Shown: positions 2,216 through 36,419, counted from the first letter of the stretch. The stretch is DNA of 64,000 bases from a candidate division LCP-89 bacterium B3_LCP (GCA_005223185.1 NJBN01000002.1:248001-312000), one strand, 5' to 3'. Numbers and translations: made by a program. The notes: generated by a model not told the origin, from the sequence alone.

Positions 2216-3082
2216 TCAGTTTCCCGTCCGTGGGCCTTCCAGATACCTGAACAGTGACGAATTGGCCGATAGAACCAGAGTGGCGTCTTCACCCAACGCT
2301 GCCCGGTATGTTTCCAGGCTGCGCAGAAATGAGTAAAACTCCGGGTTCTTCTTTAAGGCATCAGCGTAAATCTTAATTGCCTTAGCATCGCCTTCCCCGC
2401 GTAGTATTTCACTCTGGCGGCGCGCATCAGCAATTATGATCGCTTTCGTTTTGTCCGTTTCGGCTTTGATTTTCAACTGCTCCTCTTCACCTTCAGAACG
2501 GTAACGTTTCCCAATTCTAATACGTTCTGCCTGCATCCTGGAATAGATGCTTTCAGCGATTTCATGAGGAAAGTCGGTGCGTTTGATTCGTACGTCAATG
2601 ATCTCCACTCCGAATTCTAATCCTTTTTCCTTGGTTATCTGCAGAACTTCCGCCATGATTGGTTCACGTTTCTCGGTGATGATATCAGACTGATCATGAG
2701 AAGCGACAGCCTCCCGCAGTTCAGATGAAATTATCGCATCGAGACGCGCATTGGCGCGCGGCATGTCTTTGAGGGTTTCGTAAAATATGCGCGGGTCTGA
2801 AATAAGGAAACGCGCGTAGGCGTCAACCACCAGGGCTTTCTTATCTTTAGTTAGAAATTCCGCTGGCGGCGCATCGTAACGTAACAGTCTCTTCTCGTAA
2901 GTTGTCACTGACTGGATAAAAGGGATTTTCATATGCAATCCCGGGCTCTGTACTGCTTTGACGAAACGTCCCAGTTGAATAATTATGACCTGTTTAGTTT
3001 CATCAACAGTGTAGAACGCATTGGTCAGCAGGATGATGATGACCAGACCGACGATAACGGTGAAAATGCTATTCTTTTTCAT
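2216..3082 (-). CDS. hflC: HflC-type SPFH/band-7 membrane protein
   Basis: 288 residues, somewhat shorter than E. coli HflC. One N-terminal membrane segment (about residues 6-24) is followed by the SPFH/band-7 domain (about 20-190: VIIIQLGRFVKAVQSPGLHMK). A charged helical region with GEGDAKAIKIYADAL follows, then the HflC hallmark FYSFLRSLETYR near residue 250. HflC pairs with HflK to form a ring-shaped cage on the periplasmic face that surrounds and restrains the FtsH protease. The start ATG overlaps the hflK stop in ATGA (3079-3082), so the two are translationally coupled. No FtsH gene is in view. A second, divergent HflC-like gene lies at 27284-28165. Confidence 0.9.
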   Translation of the reverse strand: MKKNSIFTVIVGLVIIILLTNAFYTVDETKQVIIIQLGRFVKAVQSPGLHMKIPFIQSVTTYEKRLLRYDAPPAEFLTKDKKALVVDAYARFLISDPRIFYETLKDMPRANARLDAIISSELREAVASHDQSDIITEKREPIMAEVLQITKEKGLEFGVEIIDVRIKRTDFPHEIAESIYSRMQAERIRIGKRYRSEGEEEQLKIKAETDKTKAIIIADARRQSEILRGEGDAKAIKIYADALKKNPEFYSFLRSLETYRAALGEDATLVLSANSSLFRYLEGPRTGN

Positions 3083-4125
3083 TGCTGACCTCCTTTCCTG
3101 GTTTCCGCAAGAGGTATTGATGAACCAAGATCACCCAACGGCAGCAGCGGCAGAGACTTGCCGGCAACGTCCTTGGAGATTACTATCTTGTTGGCTTTAG
3201 CAAGTACCTCTTGCATAGTTTCGAAGTACAGTCTGCGCCTGGTAACGTCCTTGGCAATTCGGTACTCTTTCAGCATGGACAGGAAACGAGCGGCGCTGCC
3301 CTTAGCTTCGAGTATGCTCGTTTCTTTGTATGCTTCTGCTGCGCGAAGCATCTGCTCTGCTTCACCACGTGCTTTGGGCAGCAGATCTTCCTTGTACGCC
3401 TGCGCTTCATTGATGATGCGTTCGCGGTCTTCCTTAGCGCTGACTACGTCTTTGAATGAAGCCTTTACTTGATCTGGCGGATCCACAGCCTGCAGTTTAA
3501 CAGCAGTTATTAGCAGACCGGTTCTGTAAATATCCATCAGCGACTGGAGGTGTGTTTTCGTATCTTCCTGAACTTTTGCTCTGCCAGTAGTGAGGATATC
3601 ATCAATATCCATACTACCGGCGACGCCACGCAGTGCGGTTTCGGCTGCATCCATCAGGGTGCGCCGGTCTGCGCTGCCTTCAGGATCCCAGACACGAAAC
3701 AGGAAATCAGGTAAACTGCTGATACGATACTGTATCACCACGCGTACGTTCACCAGGTTTTCATCACCGGTGATCATCAGCGATTCAAGTGGGTATGATT
3801 TGATCCGTGCAGGCGGTCCCGGGTGTATGGTACGGAATCCCAGCTCCATGCTGCGAATCTCTTCAATCTTGACCACGTCCACACGTTCAATGGGACCGGG
3901 AATGTGATAGTGAGGTCCGGGCCCTGTGGTCGTCCGCATCTTACCGAATCTGCGTACAACGCCCATTTCACCCGGCTTGACGATATATATCCCCGTCAGC
4001 AGCCAGAGTACGGCGATTCCACAGATGGCGTAGATCCAGAGCCGTCCGGGGCCCTTACCCGCAAATTGCCTTTGCAAGCTTTTGAAAAACTTACTGTTCA
4101 AAAACTCATCGAAAGATTGATCCAT
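3079..4125 (-). CDS. hflK: HflK-type SPFH/band-7 membrane protein
   Basis: 348 residues from ATG 4125. An in-frame TTG at 4137 would add four residues, but the GGAGGAG Shine-Dalgarno lies inside that extension and is well spaced for ATG 4125, which settles the start. One membrane segment (about 27-48, LWIYAICGIAVLWLLTGIYI) is followed by the SPFH domain, with GVVRRFGKM at its head and VNVRVVIQYRI inside. A long helical arm rich in Ala, Glu and Lys follows (AKEDRERIINEAQAYKEDLL). The Gly-rich N-terminal stretch of proteobacterial HflK is absent. First gene of the hflKC operon. The product should sit in the inner membrane with HflC and modulate FtsH (family knowledge). Confidence 0.9.
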   Translation of the reverse strand: MDQSFDEFLNSKFFKSLQRQFAGKGPGRLWIYAICGIAVLWLLTGIYIVKPGEMGVVRRFGKMRTTTGPGPHYHIPGPIERVDVVKIEEIRSMELGFRTIHPGPPARIKSYPLESLMITGDENLVNVRVVIQYRISSLPDFLFRVWDPEGSADRRTLMDAAETALRGVAGSMDIDDILTTGRAKVQEDTKTHLQSLMDIYRTGLLITAVKLQAVDPPDQVKASFKDVVSAKEDRERIINEAQAYKEDLLPKARGEAEQMLRAAEAYKETSILEAKGSAARFLSMLKEYRIAKDVTRRRLYFETMQEVLAKANKIVISKDVAGKSLPLLPLGDLGSSIPLAETRKGGQQ

Positions 4126-4181
4126 CGACTCCTCCAATTTGTATTGTTATATATTTGTCCTTGACTTTCTCACCTTTTCAG

Positions 4182-25136: not shown

Positions 25137-27266
25137 ATGCTTAGTTTCTTTGTTGACATAATAGTAAAGACTGCTTCAATTCTGGTAGATACGAGTCTCT
25201 ACCTCCTCTTCGGTTTTTTTATAGCCGGGATTATCCACGTTTATCTACCCCAGAAACGTATCTTCAAGCTGTTCGGCAAGCGGGACGTCAAGTCTGTCGT
25301 CAACGCCAGCCTTCTGGGAATACCTCTGCCTTTATGCTCATGTTCTGTCCTCCCCACAGCCATATCACTGCGAAAGAGTGGCGCCAGTAAGGGATCGGTC
25401 TTCTCCTTTTTGATATCCACGCCTGAAACGAGTGTTCCCTCCATCGGTATCAGCTTCGCCTTATTGGATCCCCTGATGACGATCTTCCGTCCTCTCGGCT
25501 CCTTTATCACTGCCGTTCTCACAGGTCTGGGAGTTAATCTTCTAAACGGAAATGATTCTAACGATAAATCGGATATCATCCCCAACGAAGACGAAACCTC
25601 CAATTGCGGTCCATCCTGTAATCAGGAAGTGGATCAGTCCACACCAAATCCTCGCAAGTTTTCAGAGGTCATAAAATATTCCTTCGTGACTCTGATGAAT
25701 GACATGGCGCCCTACTTGGTATTCGGCTTTTTGGCTGCAGGATTAATCTCAGTCCTCATCCCTGAAAGCATCTTCAGCGGATTTTTAGGACGCGGTATAT
25801 GGCCCATGTTACTGATGCTGGTGATCGGTATCCCCATCTACATCTGTGCTACTGAATCGACTCCCATTGCCGCAGCTCTTATTTTAAAAGGGTTGTCACC
25901 TGGTGCAGCTCTGGTGTTTCTCCTGGCTGGTCCAGCTACCAATATCAGTTCGCTTATCGTCTTATCAAAATATTTCTCCCGCAGAATTTTGATAATTTAC
26001 CTGGCGTCCATTGCCATCGTTACGTTGATACTGGGCGGCATTCTCAACTGGTTGTACGGTTCACTGAACCTGCTTCCCCATGTCACTATGGGTACCGCTG
26101 CTGGAATGTTTCCGACATGGCTGAAGGTAAGTGCTACGTTAGCCTTGCTGATCATGCTGCACATCAGTTTGGTAAAGAGCCAAAATTATTCCACATTTTG
26201 GGCCTGGTTAAAGAAGAAATCCACCTGGACGGGTAATAAACTTATCAGGGTTTTTGCTGTATTGGCAGTTTTAGTGTACATCTCTGACGGATTCTTCGTC
26301 GTGCCTGCGGGAAGTACGGGCATGTCGGTTACTTTTGGCAAGGTTACCGGTAAGGATTTACAACCGGGGCTGCATTTTCGAGCGCCCGCGCCGATCGGTA
26401 GGACTATTCTGGTGAAAACTGATCTGGTGCGTGTGCTTGAGGTCGGTTTTCGGCGCACGGATGAAGGTACTGGAATTGCGATGATGACGCAGAGATCAAC
26501 TTACTCATCACTTCTGCGGGAAAAACTGGATGATTTTTCCAGTAAGGACATGCCCAAAGAAAGTGAACTGTTAGCCGGTGATGAAAACCTGATTGACATT
26601 GACCTGGTAGTTCATTATTCCCTGGAAGACGCCTATCAGACCACCTATTTAATTGAGAATACCGAGCAGTTATTAAGAGAACTGACCGCACACCAGATAT
26701 TGCGAAAGATCGCTACGTGCAAAGTTTCAGATGAATTGACGTCCACTCGTGCACAATTTGAAAACGACGTGTCCGCAGGGTTGCAGGAATCATTGGAGCA
26801 CCTGGAAATCGGAGTAAAAATACATAGCGTCAGCTTGGTTTACGCGCACGCTCCTTCGGTAGTTCACGCAGCATTCCGGGACGTTGCCTCTGCTATGGAA
26901 GATAAATACCGCCTGATCAACTTAGCTCAGACGGATTCAATTGGCACGGTGGCAAAGGCGCGTGGAAAGAGTTACAGAAAGCTGTCAGGTGCGCGTTCCG
27001 ATTCCGTAAAGAGGGTAAATGATGCCACCGGTCAGTCAAGTCGTTTTGTGGATATGGCACAGAGTATGAGCCGCTGGCGCAGTACTCAGCAGTTCCGTTT
27101 AAATGCTGAAGCGGCTGAATCAACCCTGGTCAATATCGATAAGATTCTAATGTTAACTAAACAAGGACAAGGTCTTGACCTTATTCTCTGGCCAGGCTTA
27201 AGTAACAAGAATAATATTCCCCCGGAAGTATTTCAGCGGTTGCAGGGTTCTTCCGGATCACCCTAA
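25137..27266 (+). CDS. Metal permease (YraQ/SO_0444 type) fused to HflK-like SPFH domain
   Basis: 709 residues; two families in one chain. Residues 1-345 form the permease, with about eight helices, the signature PLCSCSVLPTAISLRKSGAS (C67, C69), STPETSVPSI, a Cys loop NCGPSC (157-161), and ICATESTPIAAALILKG with Cys237 followed by LAGPATNISSL. This is the YraQ/DUF318 family, whose SO_0444 branch exports Cu or Zn. Residues 370-385 are a new membrane helix, followed by an SPFH domain of HflK type (GMSVTFGKV, then LQPGLHFRAPAPIGRT). The C-terminal arm is shorter than in true HflK. It starts 20 bases after murA and is followed at once by HflC-like and HflK-like genes. No frameshift is needed, so the fusion looks real. 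Confidence 0.88.
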   Translation: MLSFFVDIIVKTASILVDTSLYLLFGFFIAGIIHVYLPQKRIFKLFGKRDVKSVVNASLLGIPLPLCSCSVLPTAISLRKSGASKGSVFSFLISTPETSVPSIGISFALLDPLMTIFRPLGSFITAVLTGLGVNLLNGNDSNDKSDIIPNEDETSNCGPSCNQEVDQSTPNPRKFSEVIKYSFVTLMNDMAPYLVFGFLAAGLISVLIPESIFSGFLGRGIWPMLLMLVIGIPIYICATESTPIAAALILKGLSPGAALVFLLAGPATNISSLIVLSKYFSRRILIIYLASIAIVTLILGGILNWLYGSLNLLPHVTMGTAAGMFPTWLKVSATLALLIMLHISLVKSQNYSTFWAWLKKKSTWTGNKLIRVFAVLAVLVYISDGFFVVPAGSTGMSVTFGKVTGKDLQPGLHFRAPAPIGRTILVKTDLVRVLEVGFRRTDEGTGIAMMTQRSTYSSLLREKLDDFSSKDMPKESELLAGDENLIDIDLVVHYSLEDAYQTTYLIENTEQLLRELTAHQILRKIATCKVSDELTSTRAQFENDVSAGLQESLEHLEIGVKIHSVSLVYAHAPSVVHAAFRDVASAMEDKYRLINLAQTDSIGTVAKARGKSYRKLSGARSDSVKRVNDATGQSSRFVDMAQSMSRWRSTQQFRLNAEAAESTLVNIDKILMLTKQGQGLDLILWPGLSNKNNIPPEVFQRLQGSSGSP

Positions 27267-27283
27267 ACAATGATACCCTCAAA

Positions 27284-28165
27284 ATGAAGAAAAGCATAAC
27301 CTATGCAATTCTGGCGCTCATCGTAATTACCCTGATTAATTCGAGTCTTTATCAGGTGAATGAGAACCAGGTTGCAGTAATAACGTCGTTCGGTCGGCCC
27401 GTAAAAGCTGTCGAAAAATCCGGTCTGCACGCAAAATGGATTTATCCATTCCATAAAGTACAGAAATTCGACCGGAGACTGCTGACCTTTGATCCCCAGG
27501 CAACCGAACTTTTGACGAAAGATAAGAAGAACCTGAATGTTGACGCCTTCCTGCTCTGGCGCATCGAAGACCCCATCCAGTTCTTAGTGTCTGTTGGAAA
27601 CCGTTCAGGAGCCGAAGCCAGGCTTGCGGACCTGCTATATTCTGCTATGGGAACCAAAATAGGTCAGGCGATGTTTTCTGAACTTATCAGCAACGTTCCC
27701 GGGGAAATGAAATTAATGGAAATCTGTCGGACTATAGAAGAGAGTTGTTATGAAATCGCCTCCGAGGACCTGGGTATCAAAGTTGAATCCGTTCTGATCA
27801 AGCGTATAGCATATCCGCCACAAAACCGCGTTGCTGTGTTTGAACGCATGAAAGCCGAACGCGGCAGAATCGCCAGGCGATATCGAAGTGAAGGTGAAGA
27901 GAGCGCTCAGAAGATCAGATCGGGTGCTGATCTTGAATCAGCGCTGATTCTGGCGGCGGCAAATCGAGAGGCGCTTACAATCCGGGGAGCCGGGGAAGCA
28001 AAGGCTGCTGACATTTACCGCAAATCCATACAGAAAGATCCGGAATTCTTCCGGTTTCTGCGTAGTCTGGACGCTTATAAAGTCTTCATGGATGAGCGTT
28101 CCACCGTCGTGATTCCCAACGATTCTGAACTCATGCAGGTACTGCGCAAAGGGCCACCAAGGTAA
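27284..28165 (+). CDS. HflC-like SPFH protein (second set)
   Basis: 293 residues. One membrane helix (about 4-22), an SPFH domain (QVAVITSFGRPVKAVEKSGL), a helical arm (AKAADIYRKSIQKDPEF) and the HflC signature FFRFLRSLDAYKVF. It resembles the first HflC (2216-3082) but is clearly divergent. It lies 17 bases after the permease-SPFH fusion and five before an HflK-like gene, so the three should be made together. It may form a mixed ring with both HflK-type partners. Confidence 0.88.
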   Translation: MKKSITYAILALIVITLINSSLYQVNENQVAVITSFGRPVKAVEKSGLHAKWIYPFHKVQKFDRRLLTFDPQATELLTKDKKNLNVDAFLLWRIEDPIQFLVSVGNRSGAEARLADLLYSAMGTKIGQAMFSELISNVPGEMKLMEICRTIEESCYEIASEDLGIKVESVLIKRIAYPPQNRVAVFERMKAERGRIARRYRSEGEESAQKIRSGADLESALILAAANREALTIRGAGEAKAADIYRKSIQKDPEFFRFLRSLDAYKVFMDERSTVVIPNDSELMQVLRKGPPR

Positions 28166-28170
28166 CGGCA

Positions 28171-29082
28171 ATGAAGAAATTTGTATTCATCCTGATTGGA
28201 ATTATCTTAGGTATTTATCTGTTGACCGGCATCTATGTAGTTGGATCCGAGAAGATGGGTGTGGTCACCTTTTTCGGCAGAGTAGTTGCTGACAGAATTC
28301 CAGCCGGTATCCATTACGCGTTCCCCTGGCCCTTCACAAAAGTATATACACCAGCGGTGGCGGTGGTTAAGCGTATGAGTATCGGCTTTAAGTTAGTGGA
28401 TCAATTGCAGGGCATAGGGCCTTCGCGCAACGAGAGTGAAAGATTATCGGGTGATTCCAACGTCATAACCGTTTCCATAATGGTACAGTACACCGTTCGT
28501 GATCCAGGCGCTTATCTGTTCAATGCTGAAGACCCTGATTTCCTGGTCCGCAAGGCGGGTGAGGCTCTCCTCTGCGAAAAGGTGGGTATGATCAGTGTAG
28601 ATGACCTGCTCACCGTTGGCAAATCTGAGGTTGAACAGTATGTACGTAACGGTTTACAAACCTTCTCCGACAGCGTTGGCGCTGGCTTGCGAATCCGTTC
28701 CTGCAGCCTGCAAAAGGTCGAACCGCCCCTGGAAGTGATCGAGTCCTTCAACGAAGTATCCCGGGCGAAATCTAACCGGGAAAAGATTATAAATGACGCT
28801 CACACCTATCGTTCTGAAATGCTACCCAAAGCGCGCGCTCAAGCTCAGCAGATTGTTCAATCTGCACAAGCCGTTTCCGCAGCCCGTGTAAGCAAAGCTG
28901 AAGGTGATGCCGCCCGCTTTGAAAAGATCTTCTCTGAATACAGGAAAAATCCCAAAATCTTAAGCCAACGCCTTTACTGGGATACCATCGAAGCAGTGTT
29001 GGCAGGCGCCCGTAAAATAATTGTTGACGACAAACCAGACGATCAGGGAACAAACTTGCATATTATCTCTGATACTCCCTAA
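28171..29082 (+). CDS. HflK-like SPFH protein (second set)
   Basis: 303 residues, shorter than usual HflK. Membrane helix about 3-22 (FVFILIGIILGIYLLTGIYV), SPFH domain (GVVTFFGRVVADRIPAGIHY, then VITVSIMVQYTVRDPG), and the arm motif AKSNREKIINDAHTYRSEML, close to the corresponding arm of the HflK at 3079-4125. It is the third SPFH protein in a row and has a full coiled arm, which the permease fusion lacks. A role in organising FtsH or the permease is inferred, not shown. Confidence 0.88.
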   Translation: MKKFVFILIGIILGIYLLTGIYVVGSEKMGVVTFFGRVVADRIPAGIHYAFPWPFTKVYTPAVAVVKRMSIGFKLVDQLQGIGPSRNESERLSGDSNVITVSIMVQYTVRDPGAYLFNAEDPDFLVRKAGEALLCEKVGMISVDDLLTVGKSEVEQYVRNGLQTFSDSVGAGLRIRSCSLQKVEPPLEVIESFNEVSRAKSNREKIINDAHTYRSEMLPKARAQAQQIVQSAQAVSAARVSKAEGDAARFEKIFSEYRKNPKILSQRLYWDTIEAVLAGARKIIVDDKPDDQGTNLHIISDTP

Positions 29083-30108: not shown

Positions 30109-30133
30109 AAACGTTATATATATAAGGTTGTCT

Positions 30134-30694
30134 ATGTCTGTCGAAATTGGAATACTTGGATTGTTGCGTGAGAAGAATTATCACGGGTACGAGCTTAAGA
30201 AGGAAATTCAACACCGGATGAGTCATTGGACCGATGTGAAGTTTGGTTCGATATATCATGCTTTACGTAAATTAGTAGATCGTGGAGCAGTTGAAAAAGC
30301 AGCCGAGGAGCGGCAGAGCGGAAGACCTGAAAGAACTATCTACCGGATTACGAAGAGTGGGGAAGAGGAGTTCTTAGTGCTTCTCCGTGATCTGTTGAAC
30401 CGCTTTCAACGCGTATATCTTGAGTTCAACATAGGATTTTATTTTGCAGGTAGCGTTCCTACTAAAGAGCTGGATGATATTTTGTCGCGGAGAATTGACT
30501 ACCATCATGAACTGGTAGAAAAATTGGAGAACCACAAAAATATGCCCTACTTTCAGGAAATTCCTGGCGTAACGGAAGTCATTTTAGAGAACTCCATCTT
30601 TCATTTGAAAGCAGAAGAGGAATGGTTAAAATTCGCCAGAAAGCGAATCAATAAAGAAGACCTATATTCCATTAAAGGTAAGAAACGGCTTTAA
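30134..30694 (+). CDS. PadR-family transcriptional regulator
   Basis: 186 residues from ATG 30134 (the TTG six bases before is ignored). The N-terminal winged helix (IGILGLLREKNYHGYELKKE, then FGSIYHALRKLVDRGAVEKA) and TIYRITKSGEEEF are typical of PadR subfamily 1, with a C-terminal dimerisation helix pair (about 100-180). PadR proteins repress stress, phenolic acid or efflux genes until a ligand binds. Here it heads an operon with TolC, adaptor and RND pump genes; the tolC start lies 15 bases after its stop. Confidence 0.85.
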   Translation: MSVEIGILGLLREKNYHGYELKKEIQHRMSHWTDVKFGSIYHALRKLVDRGAVEKAAEERQSGRPERTIYRITKSGEEEFLVLLRDLLNRFQRVYLEFNIGFYFAGSVPTKELDDILSRRIDYHHELVEKLENHKNMPYFQEIPGVTEVILENSIFHLKAEEEWLKFARKRINKEDLYSIKGKKRL

Positions 30695-30709
30695 TTGGGG
30701 TTGCTGAAT

Positions 30710-32083
30710 ATGAAGAAGCGTTTGCTGTTAATTATATGTATCATTTCGCAGTTCGCCCTTAGCGCTACGGGATTGGCTGATGAAAAAGTTCCTATTTCGC
30801 TGGAAGAGGTAATTGCCACAGCGCTGAAGAACAATCCCTCGCTTCGCCAGGCGCAACTGGACAAATCCGCCGCCGGTTGGGGTATGTTAGGCGCAGTATC
30901 TGAAGCCTTCCCCCATGTGAGTTTCAACAGCAGCGTTCTGCGGTCGGACGATGAGAGCGTCTTTCGTTCAAACATCATGCGTGACGTTATCCTGCAGGAA
31001 TACGGTCAATATATCGATCCTGAAGATTTTCCGCCTTTTCTCTACAAGGATATGTACAGTTCTTCGATTTCAGTGGATCAACCGATCTACAACGGTGGTG
31101 TTGAAATCACAGCGTTACGAATTGCCGGTACCAGGAAGAAAATCATCAAGCTGACGTTGGAAACACAGCAGAGGGAAACGATACTTCAGGCTACCATAGC
31201 GTACTACAATCTATGTAGAGCTTATCAAGCCTTTTTAGTGCAGCAGAACACACTGGAAGTTTCCAACAGCTATCTGAATCGTTTCAAGCGGAGACAGGAT
31301 TTGGGGTTGATCTCAGAAGTGGACGTCCTGCGATGGGAAGTCCAGGCTGCTGACGAATACGCCGCATTCATAGAAGCAGAAAATAACTTAAAACTCGCCA
31401 ATCTGGAATTAGGAAGAGTCATAGGACTATCAAGCGAAGGTTGGTATTATCCTTCGGATTTGGCTGACTTCCTGGGAGTATCTTCCGGTGACCCTTCCGC
31501 GGGGATAGAGAGTCCTGAAAGCTTATGGGAAAGAATTCAGGAAAGATCCCCTGATCTTGAGATTGCACGTAGCAGCATCGCTTTAGAGAAGCAGAATGTG
31601 TGGTTAGCTTCATCTAACTTCCAGCCGAAATTTAACTTCAACTACACCTATGCCTGGCAATCAGATGGCGATTTAGCGCTGGACGGGTTTGAATCCTGGA
31701 CTGCCAGCATTTCACTGAGTATGCCTATATTCGCAAGTTTCGGCAACGTTGCCAAAATACAAGAAGCGCGTATCGGTGTAAAGAAAGCGAAGGAGAGCGT
31801 GAGGGATTATGAAAATTCACTGCACATCCAGTTGATTGCGGCGTATAGTGATCTTCAATCTGCAGCGGCGCGTTTGAACAGCGCCAAGCGTATGTCACAA
31901 CAGGCTGAAGAAGTGGTAGCGGCTCAAGAAAACCGCCACGAATTGGGGATGATCACCATGCTGGAACTGTTAGACGCAAAAACCACTAAACTTCGCGCGG
32001 AATTAAATCAAATCAACTCACTTTTTGATGCACTCATTGCGCGGGAGAGACTTGTGCGCATCGTTGGACCGATGGATCGGTGA
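30710..32083 (+). CDS. TolC-family outer membrane efflux protein
   Basis: 457 residues from ATG 30710. Signal peptide 1-23. Two outer-membrane-efflux repeats with long coiled helices: ISLEEVIATALKNNPSLRQA at the start, then SISVDQPIYNGG, RRQDLGLISEVDVLRWE, and in the second half SISLSMPIFASFGNV and NRHELGMITMLELLDA. Forms the trimeric outer channel of the pump made by the next two genes. The TolC family is also used by type I secretion, but this operon fits efflux. Confidence 0.9.
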   Translation: MKKRLLLIICIISQFALSATGLADEKVPISLEEVIATALKNNPSLRQAQLDKSAAGWGMLGAVSEAFPHVSFNSSVLRSDDESVFRSNIMRDVILQEYGQYIDPEDFPPFLYKDMYSSSISVDQPIYNGGVEITALRIAGTRKKIIKLTLETQQRETILQATIAYYNLCRAYQAFLVQQNTLEVSNSYLNRFKRRQDLGLISEVDVLRWEVQAADEYAAFIEAENNLKLANLELGRVIGLSSEGWYYPSDLADFLGVSSGDPSAGIESPESLWERIQERSPDLEIARSSIALEKQNVWLASSNFQPKFNFNYTYAWQSDGDLALDGFESWTASISLSMPIFASFGNVAKIQEARIGVKKAKESVRDYENSLHIQLIAAYSDLQSAAARLNSAKRMSQQAEEVVAAQENRHELGMITMLELLDAKTTKLRAELNQINSLFDALIARERLVRIVGPMDR

Positions 32084-32207
32084 GTGGTCAGCGATCATTT
32101 CACGAGAATCTAAATCCACTTAAGGTAGCGCGGGGGCTTGCGGTGAAACCGTGCCAATGGTGCCCCCGCAGGTACATCGCTTATCATTACCCCTTTTGGA
32201 GAGTATG

Positions 32208-33305
32208 ATGAATAATTCAAGCTCGAAGAATAAGTTAGCATTTATCGTTGCTTTGTTGGGTACGGCGCTCATATTCATATCCTGCAGTTCGGACAGTAAT
32301 AAAGAGTCAGATGATTCAGGTGATGACCGTATTGTGCCTGTGCGGGTTTACCATGTCATGCCTCAAACACTGGAATTGACGGTCCAAGCTACCGGAGTTA
32401 TACGTTCCCACGATCAATGTCCGATCACGCCTGAAGTTGCGGGTAAGGTGGTTGAGAAGATACGCGACGTCGGTGACCCTGTCAGCATCGGTACTGTAAT
32501 CCTCGCAATCGATCCCGAACCGTACGCCTTGGCAGAAGCGCAAGCTGATGCAGGCTACCGGTCAGCGCAGGTTGCCTACGAACAGACACAGCGTGATTAC
32601 CAGAGAGCTGAAGAATTAAAGACATCAGAAGATATTTCGCAAAATGAATTAGAAGCAATGCGGCTCCAGGAAAGAACGGCATTTGCCAACCTGAGTTCTG
32701 CCGAAGCTGCTTACAAATTAGCCCAACGAAACCTGCGATTGACTGAAGTTGTCAGCCCTATCTATGGATCGGTTGCTCAATTGAATGTGCAAATCGGTCA
32801 GCAGGTATCGCCCGGTATTCCTCTGGGAACAATAATTTCTTCTGACAATATTGAAGTTGAAGTTGGGCTCAGCGAAAGGGACATTATCAAGATGGTGAAG
32901 GGGATTCGTGTTGAAATCACCACCGACGTATTTCCTGAACGAAGCTTCGCAGGAACAGTGCGGAGAATTGGGCAAGCAGGCTTAAACATGGGACGAACTT
33001 TCCCTGTAGTCATCACTATCGATAACAATGAAGGTCTTCTGAAGCCGGGGATGATCGTAAAAGCCCAAATCATCTGGGCGGAACGTTCCCAGGTGCTGGC
33101 AGTGCCTCGGGAAGCGTTAGTTTCAGGATCAGAAAAACCGCTTCTCTACATCGTTGAGGATAAAATTGCCATTGGGTGCGAAGTGAAGTTGGGCAGTAGC
33201 GACGGTAATAAAATTATCATAGAATCCGGTATTGCGGAAGGCGATCTCTTAGTGGTAGAAGGTCAAAACGTCTTACGTGACAGCATCAAAGTAGAGATCT
33301 TTTAA
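32208..33305 (+). CDS. RND efflux periplasmic adaptor lipoprotein
   Basis: 365 residues from ATG 32208; the GGAG at 32198-32201 fits this ATG better than the one at 32205, and the upstream frame to 32151 has no support. The lipobox is FISC, so it is anchored in the membrane. HlyD-like order: barrel-sandwich (TGVIRSHDQCPITPEVAGKV), coiled hairpin (QTQRDYQRAEELKTSEDISQ), lipoyl return (VVSPIYGSVAQLNVQIGQQV), and beta barrel (PERSFAGTVRRI). It bridges the RND pump and TolC channel. A 124-base gap with a short G/C-rich palindrome separates it from tolC. Confidence 0.88.
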   Translation: MNNSSSKNKLAFIVALLGTALIFISCSSDSNKESDDSGDDRIVPVRVYHVMPQTLELTVQATGVIRSHDQCPITPEVAGKVVEKIRDVGDPVSIGTVILAIDPEPYALAEAQADAGYRSAQVAYEQTQRDYQRAEELKTSEDISQNELEAMRLQERTAFANLSSAEAAYKLAQRNLRLTEVVSPIYGSVAQLNVQIGQQVSPGIPLGTIISSDNIEVEVGLSERDIIKMVKGIRVEITTDVFPERSFAGTVRRIGQAGLNMGRTFPVVITIDNNEGLLKPGMIVKAQIIWAERSQVLAVPREALVSGSEKPLLYIVEDKIAIGCEVKLGSSDGNKIIIESGIAEGDLLVVEGQNVLRDSIKVEIF

Positions 33306-33317
33306 AGGAATCTAAGT

Positions 33318-36300
33318 ATGTCTCCGATTCGACTTGCGGTAAATAATCCGGTATTAGCCAACCTGTTGATGGTTACTTTGACTCTTCTGGGAGTTTTAGC
33401 TTTCATGGATCTTCCCCGGGAGTTAATGCCGAAAATATCTTTTAACTGGGCGTTTATCGTTACGCCATATCCTAACGTTCCAGCTGAAGATGTAGAACAA
33501 CTGGTGACCATCCCCATCGAGGAAGAGATAGCCGACATAGACGGTATTGACCAGATAACTTCGGTCTCCAGGGAAGGGCGGTCTTTTATATGGGTAAAAT
33601 TCGAGCTCATGTCCGAAGATAAATTTTCCAAGTTGCTTTCCGATCTCAAGATTGAAGTGGACAAGGCTGTTATACCCGATGACGTCGAAGATATATACGT
33701 AGAAGAATTTGATACTGAAGATTTCATACCAATAATTTCCATATCCCTTTCCGGAGATTTTCCTGAAAAGGTAATGCATGATCTGGCTGAAGATCTGGAG
33801 GATCTCTATCTGGACGTCTCTGGTGTTTCGGAGATCGCCGTAGCGGGCACGCGGGATCGGGAAATATGGGTGGAAGTAGCTCCAGAAAAGTTGTATGCAC
33901 ACGGTTTGACCTTAGAACAGGTAGCCAGCAGTATAAAATATAGAAACTTTAACCTTGCTGGTGGAGATCTAAAAGCTGGAAATGAAAAACTACTGGTTCG
34001 CACTGTCGGTGAATTTGAAAAAACCGATGAAATTGGTTCCAGCGTTGTTCTGAAATCAGGACCAGACGGGAATCAGGTTTACCTTCATGACGTTGCCACC
34101 ATTACCGATGGGTGGGAAGAAGAGATCAGCAGGTCCCGACTGAATCAACTTCCTTCTATAACCCTTTCCATCTCCAAGAAGTCAAAGGCTAATTCACTGG
34201 ACCTGATCGATACGATCAAGAACATCACGGAAGAATATAGAGATAAACTCCCACCTGGTATGGAAATTACCTATACCAATGACAATTCCATACAGATCGT
34301 TGATGTTCTGCAGAAACTTCAGAACAATGCTATTCTAGGTTTCATTCTGGTTATTATCCTCCTCTGGGCTTCACTGGGATGGAGAAATGCTCTGATTACA
34401 GCACTGGGTATCCCCATCACTTTAGCCATAACCATGATCTTCTTAAAACATACCGGCAATACCTTAAACGGTACGGCTCTTTTCGGTCTGGTTCTTGTCT
34501 TAGGTATGTTGGTGGATGATGCCATCGTGGTGATGGAGAACTGTTACCGTTACATTCAGTCCGGGTTGCCGCCCAAAGAAGCCGTTATAAAAGGGGCAAA
34601 AGAAGTTGCCGCCCCGGTGTGCGCCTCGGTTTTTACCACTATAGCTGCTTTCCTGCCCTTGATGCTGCTGCCCGGCATTATGGGACGTTTCATGCGTATC
34701 GTGCCTATCGTCTTATCATTAGCTCTGATGGCGAGTCTATTTGAATGCTTCTTCATCCTTCCATCCCACGTCGCTGAATGGTCCGGAATTCAGAAGATCG
34801 CAGCCGCCCAATCCCGGCTGATGGAAAGGATCAGTTCCATCTATAAGCGCCTTTTAGAACGCGTTATGCGCTTCCGCATCCTGATCGCCATAATTATGCC
34901 ATTTGTTATTCTCATCTCCGCCACGATGATACCGCTGGTGGGTGTGGAACTCTACCGGGATGAAGAGATAAGCATGTTCTTCGTGTGGGTGACGATGCCT
35001 GAAGGAACCTCACTTGAGACGACAGATCGGATTATTACGCAATTCGAATCAGAAGCAATGAATCTGCCAGCCTCAGAACTATTTGCAGTAGTGGCGACAC
35101 CGGGAATGATGCAGACTGATGACGAGTGGCACCTTAAATCATCTGTGGGGCAGTTAATAATCGATCTAAAAGAGCGCCGCGACCGCACTATGTCCATCGA
35201 AGACATAATGAACCAACTCAGGTCCAGCACAGCGGACATTCCCGGCGTTCAAGATGTCCAGTTTGCCAAGGTAAATACTGGTCCGCCTCTGGGTAAACCT
35301 GTAGAAGTGCGTGTCCAGGGCAAATACTACAAAGACACTGAACCTGTCGCTGAAATTTTGAAGAGTGAGTTAGCTCAAATTGAGGGAGTCTATGATGTTA
35401 CAGATAACTATTCTCCCGGAAAACGACAGGTAAAAGTTAAGGTAGATCCAGAACGTGCTGCTATGTTTGGCTTAAGCGTTACTCAGGTAGCCGCTTCTAT
35501 TGCCGCCGCATTTGACGGGATAGTACCCACTGTTTTCCGAGATGGCGATGATGGCATCGATATCCGAGTGAAATTTCACGAAGATCATTTGAAAGAAATC
35601 GCCGACGTTACACGTTTGAAGTTTCTCTTGCCGGATGGGAGCTGGGTACCGTTCGAAAATGTAGCGTCGATATCAGTCGAACCCGGGATTGCTGACATCC
35701 GCCATTTCGATCAGAATCGCGCTATCACTGTTTCTGCTAATGTGGATGAAGGAAAAGTTTCGGGTGTCGAAGTCAATCAACAACTGGTGAAGAAGTTTAA
35801 AAACATCGAGAAACAGCACCCCGGCGTGCGCATGTATTTTGGCGGTGAGTGGGAGGAGTTTCAGGAAGCGTTCTCTGGCATATTGGAACTGTTCCTGATC
35901 GGACTGGGGCTCATGTACGTTATCTTAGGGACGCAGTTTCGCAGTTTCATACAGCCGATCATCATTATGACTGCCATTCCTTTTGCGTTTGTTGGATCAG
36001 TAATTGGATTGCTGTTGTCCGGAAATCCCTTCTCCATAACAACCTTGTTCGCTTTCGTGGCTTTAGCCGGTGTCGTTGTCAACAATTCCATTGTGCTGGT
36101 ATCGTTCATCAATGATGCCCGCGCGCAAGGAGCCGGTCGGCATGAATCCATCGTGCAAGCTGGAATGCTGCGTTTACGACCTATCATTCTGACTTCAATA
36201 ACTACCATCTTCGGACTCCTGCCCATGGCTATCGGGTTGGGTGGTCGTTCTGAAGTGTGGGGGCCCCTGGCCAACATAATCGTCTGGGGATTAGCGTTTG

Positions 36301-36419
36301 CCACATTCCTGACGCTACTGGTTATCCCCGCGGTTTACGAACTTGTAGTTGATGACATTGGCGGCTTGTTCCGTAGAAAGCTGAAGATGAAGAACGGCTG
36401 GGTAAAGAATCACGTCTAA
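33318..36419 (+). CDS. RND efflux transporter permease
   Basis: 1033 residues, the usual length for an HAE/AcrB-like pump. N-terminal helix (MSPIRLAVNNPVLANLL), porter region with VPAEDVEQLVTIPIEE, helix 4 with the proton-relay pair Asp400-Asp401 (GMLVDDAIVVMENC), a second half starting near residue 530, and a late transmembrane block with VALAGVVVNNSIVLVSFIND. It uses proton flux to expel amphiphilic drugs, bile-like compounds or lipids. Substrate cannot be read from sequence. Starts 12 bases after the adaptor gene. No terminator is obvious after it. Confidence 0.93.
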   Translation: MSPIRLAVNNPVLANLLMVTLTLLGVLAFMDLPRELMPKISFNWAFIVTPYPNVPAEDVEQLVTIPIEEEIADIDGIDQITSVSREGRSFIWVKFELMSEDKFSKLLSDLKIEVDKAVIPDDVEDIYVEEFDTEDFIPIISISLSGDFPEKVMHDLAEDLEDLYLDVSGVSEIAVAGTRDREIWVEVAPEKLYAHGLTLEQVASSIKYRNFNLAGGDLKAGNEKLLVRTVGEFEKTDEIGSSVVLKSGPDGNQVYLHDVATITDGWEEEISRSRLNQLPSITLSISKKSKANSLDLIDTIKNITEEYRDKLPPGMEITYTNDNSIQIVDVLQKLQNNAILGFILVIILLWASLGWRNALITALGIPITLAITMIFLKHTGNTLNGTALFGLVLVLGMLVDDAIVVMENCYRYIQSGLPPKEAVIKGAKEVAAPVCASVFTTIAAFLPLMLLPGIMGRFMRIVPIVLSLALMASLFECFFILPSHVAEWSGIQKIAAAQSRLMERISSIYKRLLERVMRFRILIAIIMPFVILISATMIPLVGVELYRDEEISMFFVWVTMPEGTSLETTDRIITQFESEAMNLPASELFAVVATPGMMQTDDEWHLKSSVGQLIIDLKERRDRTMSIEDIMNQLRSSTADIPGVQDVQFAKVNTGPPLGKPVEVRVQGKYYKDTEPVAEILKSELAQIEGVYDVTDNYSPGKRQVKVKVDPERAAMFGLSVTQVAASIAAAFDGIVPTVFRDGDDGIDIRVKFHEDHLKEIADVTRLKFLLPDGSWVPFENVASISVEPGIADIRHFDQNRAITVSANVDEGKVSGVEVNQQLVKKFKNIEKQHPGVRMYFGGEWEEFQEAFSGILELFLIGLGLMYVILGTQFRSFIQPIIIMTAIPFAFVGSVIGLLLSGNPFSITTLFAFVALAGVVVNNSIVLVSFINDARAQGAGRHESIVQAGMLRLRPIILTSITTIFGLLPMAIGLGGRSEVWGPLANIIVWGLAFATFLTLLVIPAVYELVVDDIGGLFRRKLKMKNGWVKNHV

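Follow-up and report, generated by a model that had tools for sequence, protein, structure and literature searches.

The closest described relative of the system reported here is the FtsH-HflK/C complex of Escherichia coli (PDB 7wi3, 9cz2, 7vhq; PMC12048511, PMC13220708), whose HflK and HflC chains combine one transmembrane helix with a periplasmic SPFH domain, coiled coils and C-terminal hat strands. FtsH is surrounded there by assemblies of 24 subunits in which HflK alternates with HflC (PMC12048511). Of the two, only HflK is in contact with FtsH, and its residues R141, E142 and R185 matter for this contact (PMC13220708). SPFH assemblies are also known with membrane partners other than FtsH, as in QmcA-YbbJ (PDB 8z5g) and in human stomatin with aquaporin-1 (PDB 9zd2), where the partner is a transport protein. 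In these cases the partners are separate, without covalent fusion, and are not metal exporters. The SO_0444 family (NF033936) carries the annotation of Cu/Zn exporter, and Cd and Cu induce one such gene in Nitratiruptor (PMC10092412); its members are normally free proteins of ~350 aa. The role of SPFH cages beyond enclosing FtsH is addressed here with an operon in which a cage subunit is covalently joined to its putative cargo.

The window, that is, the whole stretch of 64,000 nucleotides analysed, comes from a candidate division LCP-89 bacterium (B3_LCP). Its translation contains a single open frame of 709 aa on the plus strand (25137-27266) in which a permease is followed by an HflK-like SPFH protein, as the first-pass annotation had proposed. 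The SO_0444/ArsP_1-type permease module (25137-26171; residues 1-345) has the motifs C-S-C and Y-I-C-A-x-x-S-T-P, matches PF03773 (1.7e-48), and passes the curated cut-off of NF033936 (SO_0444 Cu/Zn efflux) over residues 14-341, with 368.6 bits against 300. Among the five cysteines singled out in that annotation, C67, C69 and C237 are invariant across 15 homologous fusions, whereas the loop pair C157/C161 is variable. No solved structure related to the permease module was found by sequence. The HflK-like module continues in the same frame (26172-27266; residues 346-709 plus stop), with its SPFH domain (PF01145) at residues 388-599. Its score against TIGR01933 (hflK), 126.9 bits, is below the cut-off of 159.4, which several fused HflKs elsewhere pass, for example with 211 bits. 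A single-chain AlphaFold2 model of moderate confidence (mean pLDDT 67.5, shallow alignment) has a transmembrane helix (366-383), SPFH1, SPFH2, coiled coils (574-663) and C-terminal strands, and the best Foldseek matches of this model are HflK chains (7vhq/9cz2). A full HflK architecture is thus predicted, with moderate confidence, for the fused protein.

Two more SPFH genes follow on the same strand after gaps of 17 and 5 bp, and they are HflC-like and then HflK-like, as first noticed from the sequence. The HflC-like protein (27284-28165, 293 aa) scores 206.8 bits against TIGR01932 (cut-off 134.4), and the HflK-like third subunit (28171-29082, 303 aa) scores 206.2 bits against TIGR01933 (cut-off 159.4); both align full-length with HflC and HflK, respectively. 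Canonical hflC (2216-3082) and hflK (3079-4137) lie on the minus strand of the window, outside the system. The operon has three SPFH chains, the first of them fused, and is therefore not a canonical two-gene hflKC unit. Phylogenetic trees bear out the earlier view that this is a second, divergent set beside the normal hflKC. In the HflK tree, canonical HflK forms one clade (99*), which includes the window's hflK1, while third-gene HflK, including that of the window, forms another (90) and fused HflK a third (92, unstarred). In the HflC tree, one branch (98*) parts operon HflC, including the system-specific protein of the window, from canonical HflC, with which hflC1 groups. An ordinary hflKC duplicate is ruled out because the canonical HflK (99*) and HflC (98*) groups exclude the operon chains.

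The operon is widespread. The order X-HflK / HflC / HflK, where X is a transporter module, was recovered in 46 non-redundant operons, which represent about eight phyla: the small phyla of G103, G302, G112, G061 and G155, each sampled with 2 to 9 genomes, together with the phylum of the window, Planctomycetota and Rokuibacteriota. The phylum count is approximate because sample code names and NCBI names match only in part. Within the family of the window, three of five other genomes have the same operon, with 47-71% identity per part, and it is also present in G103, which belongs to another phylum. A scan of one genome per species added copies in Planctomycetota, Candidatus Rokuibacteriota, an assembly named Gemmatimonadetes and other bacteria. 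Further copies, some of them highly divergent and with long His-rich loops such as HDHGHDHGHDH, came from a profile search of 386 genomes. In a domain-wide sample of roughly 350 genomes, at least ~26 contain the operon, and nearly all operon genomes are metagenome assemblies. Restriction to the lineage of the window is therefore ruled out, as is an assembly artefact, a frameshift or chance, since no stop interrupts the frame and all 46 operons repeat the fusion and the gene order. Confinement of the fusion to one assembly, which the first-pass annotation had allowed for, is likewise not what was found. A very divergent branch (L169, L170, L200, L201) has a His-Asp repeat as its permease loop, and its second HflK extends into a long C-terminal tail (436-445 aa in L169 and L170).

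Gene order is conserved. HflC and then HflK follow the fused gene everywhere except in copies cut by contig ends and in one further case, so that the three genes are otherwise found side by side in every contig long enough to tell. The exception is a second permease-HflK fusion in G409 (L192:5747-7918) without adjoining HflC and HflK; a complete operon is present elsewhere in that genome. The gap between the first and second genes is at most 35 bp in 43 of the 46 operons. Wherever the first gene of a K-C-K triplet is complete, it has a transporter at its N-terminus, and no such triplet was found at loci with ordinary hflKC. Among 67 plasmid records matched, none was matched over 80% of the chain; two matches on Persicobacter plasmids are ordinary hflKC. 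The three SPFH chains are inherited jointly, as their distance matrices are correlated (r 0.90-0.93; 0 of 999 permutations as high). Such correlation is a sign of joint inheritance and not of contact, because shared ancestry inflates these values.

The transporter module, by contrast with its SPFH partners, is exchanged. SO_0444 permeases account for 27 of the X modules, CDF cation-efflux transporters for 15 and P1B heavy-metal ATPases for 4, which means that all 46 operons have a member of a metal-exporter family in this position and that three unrelated folds are involved. In G172, for example, a CDF transporter (PF01545) is the N-terminal module and is followed by the same HflK, HflC and HflK. 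Searches with the SPFH part alone recovered more CDF fusions and, in one phylum, the fusions to heavy-metal P1B ATPases, whose modules score 591-616 bits against TIGR01525 (cut-off 346). The fused-HflK tree calls for at least four switches of transporter type, and the HflC tree for at least two. Fused forms are scattered over several groups of the permease tree, so gain or loss of the fusion may have happened repeatedly. The metal-site motifs of each family are kept: P[LI]CSCxV is present in all permease modules and C-A-x-x-[SA]-T-P in nearly all (motif scan), at least one HSxxD site in all CDF modules, and CPC, DKTGT and GDGIND in all four P1B modules. Many permease forms also have His-rich loops. 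Judged from these sequences, the transporters look active. CDF and P1B proteins differ here from their relatives in being fused to HflK; in the CDF forms, Pfam reports no C-terminal CDF domain and the membrane part runs into HflK. Going by family membership, the metal would be of the Zn, Cu or Cd class for the permease and ATPase forms and possibly Fe or Zn for the CDF forms. The exchange of exporters suggests that the cages are dedicated to metal transport. It also supports, more strongly than the sequence of the window could, the earlier proposal that SPFH subunits organise a metal exporter.

Two relatives in the family of the window provide a natural comparison. In G002 (L042:1679-2860) and G005 (L040:9140-10279) the SO_0444 permease is free, with a stop just after the linker; the G002 gene is positioned as in the fused relatives, with murA on one side and the downstream gene on the other. 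A stop between the two parts in related genomes had been named in the first-pass annotation as evidence against its reading. Such stops are indeed present, yet both genomes also lack all three operon SPFH parts, and no HflC of either operon or canonical type was found in them. In the permease tree, these two form the sister group of the family's fused permeases, a position compatible with loss and with gain of the fusion. The SPFH parts behave as a single unit in both scenarios, and their joint absence where the permease is free argues for coupling. Two more permease loci without fused SPFH are present in the genome of the window itself (G000, contig C7, at 68.6 kb and 82.2 kb; L005 and L002).

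CDF and P1B exporters have a cytoplasmic C-terminal end. This is where HflK begins, so that the topology fits the fusion and would place the exporter in the membrane floor with the SPFH part over the periplasmic side. We consider it probable that the operon encodes a mixed HflK/HflC-type periplasmic dome, with an exporter tethered in its membrane floor, that serves metal homeostasis. The exporter module would end in the cytoplasm, and the HflK membrane helix would then take the chain to the periplasm. There, the SPFH and coiled-coil parts of the fused chain would co-assemble with HflC and the second HflK, in a mixed ring of some presumed stoichiometry, to build an HflK/C-type dome. By inference, the three chains would make up a single cage enclosing the exporter. 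Such a dome could gather several exporters in one membrane patch and roof their periplasmic mouths. With transport presumably outward, it may organise, stabilise or gate metal export, or hand metal to periplasmic partners. It is possible, although we hold this more tentatively than the dome itself, that metal is released into an enclosed periplasmic chamber, and that a three-subunit SPFH dome with a covalently attached, exchangeable heavy-metal exporter represents an unnamed class of machine.

The main rival to this cage over an exporter is a variant FtsH-HflK/C complex in which the fused exporter is inside the FtsH chamber and is degraded or spared according to metal supply, so that control is by turnover. 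Arginines at the positions of R141 and R185, two of the three contact residues of E. coli HflK, are common in fused HflKs, which suggests that FtsH may be part of the system. FtsH was found in 39 of 43 genomes searched, but this says little because nearly all bacteria have FtsH. The operon HflC is the only HflC found in 11 of 41 operon genomes (some assemblies are incomplete) and may therefore also do the canonical job. The other 30 have another HflC, however, which adjoins the operon in G122, and the operon HflK and HflC chains form their own groups in the trees. No ftsH was seen beside the operons examined. We regard control by FtsH turnover as unlikely. With three SPFH genes instead of two and one HflK fused to a metal exporter, the operon also departs from the E. 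coli arrangement.

A mere tethering role for the SPFH part is less probable again. The exporter would then be sorted into a membrane microdomain or stabilised there without any closed or mixed cage, which is in line with the wide proposal of SPFH proteins as microdomain organisers (PMC13220708) and with the two family members that keep a permease without SPFH parts. Against a simple tether, the fused chain is predicted to retain the dome-building parts of HflK/C, including coiled coils and C-terminal strands, the two further chains align with HflC and HflK over their full length, and the three SPFH genes stay together in 46 operons. Least credible by far is a fusion that only couples the expression of two unrelated proteins, perhaps cleaved later: loss of a stop codon between neighbouring genes can produce fusions, but CDF and P1B exporters have been swapped in at the same junction, always from the metal class, and all SPFH parts are absent where the permease of the family is free.

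The component families of the proposed exporter cage are already known. As far as could be found, they have not been described in this combination, with a third SPFH subunit or with an exporter that can be exchanged; the literature searched, which covered subscription papers only in part, yielded no account of a transporter-fused HflK. The operon represents a new variant within SPFH cages and has a fair chance of deserving a class of its own. Because the join is covalent and involves three unrelated exporter families, the cargo can be read from sequence, and the idea that SPFH domes organise membrane transport becomes directly testable in a small operon. If such a dome does receive the exported metal in an enclosed chamber, HflK/C-type cages would serve transport and not only FtsH. 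The operon also opens a new way into metal homeostasis across many uncultured phyla.

Genomic neighbours vary by lineage and include formamidase-like, superoxide dismutase, FeoAB, gyrA, P450 and other genes; most are not metal genes, and no conserved fourth operon member was found among them. In three loci, a co-directional feoB immediately precedes the CDF-HflK / HflC / HflK operon (L175:3315-8859, L176:421-6042, L177:3157-8494), with feoA upstream of feoB in L175; this points to a divalent metal, iron or another, in the CDF branch concerned. In G292, the gene for a ZIP zinc transporter (L163:2503-3357) abuts the start of the permease-HflK fusion. These feoB and ZIP neighbours are only hints of function. 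Rokubacteria-type operons have an extra HflC-like gene (L061:6724-8725, L064:470-2527, L156:10636-12677, L193:9582-11587), and in L061 a formamidase/acetamidase-family gene is just upstream of the fusion. Downstream of the operon in the window, 30128-36419 encodes PadR-like regulator, TolC-like, membrane-fusion and RND-type proteins, according to translations judged by eye, and represents a separate efflux cluster.
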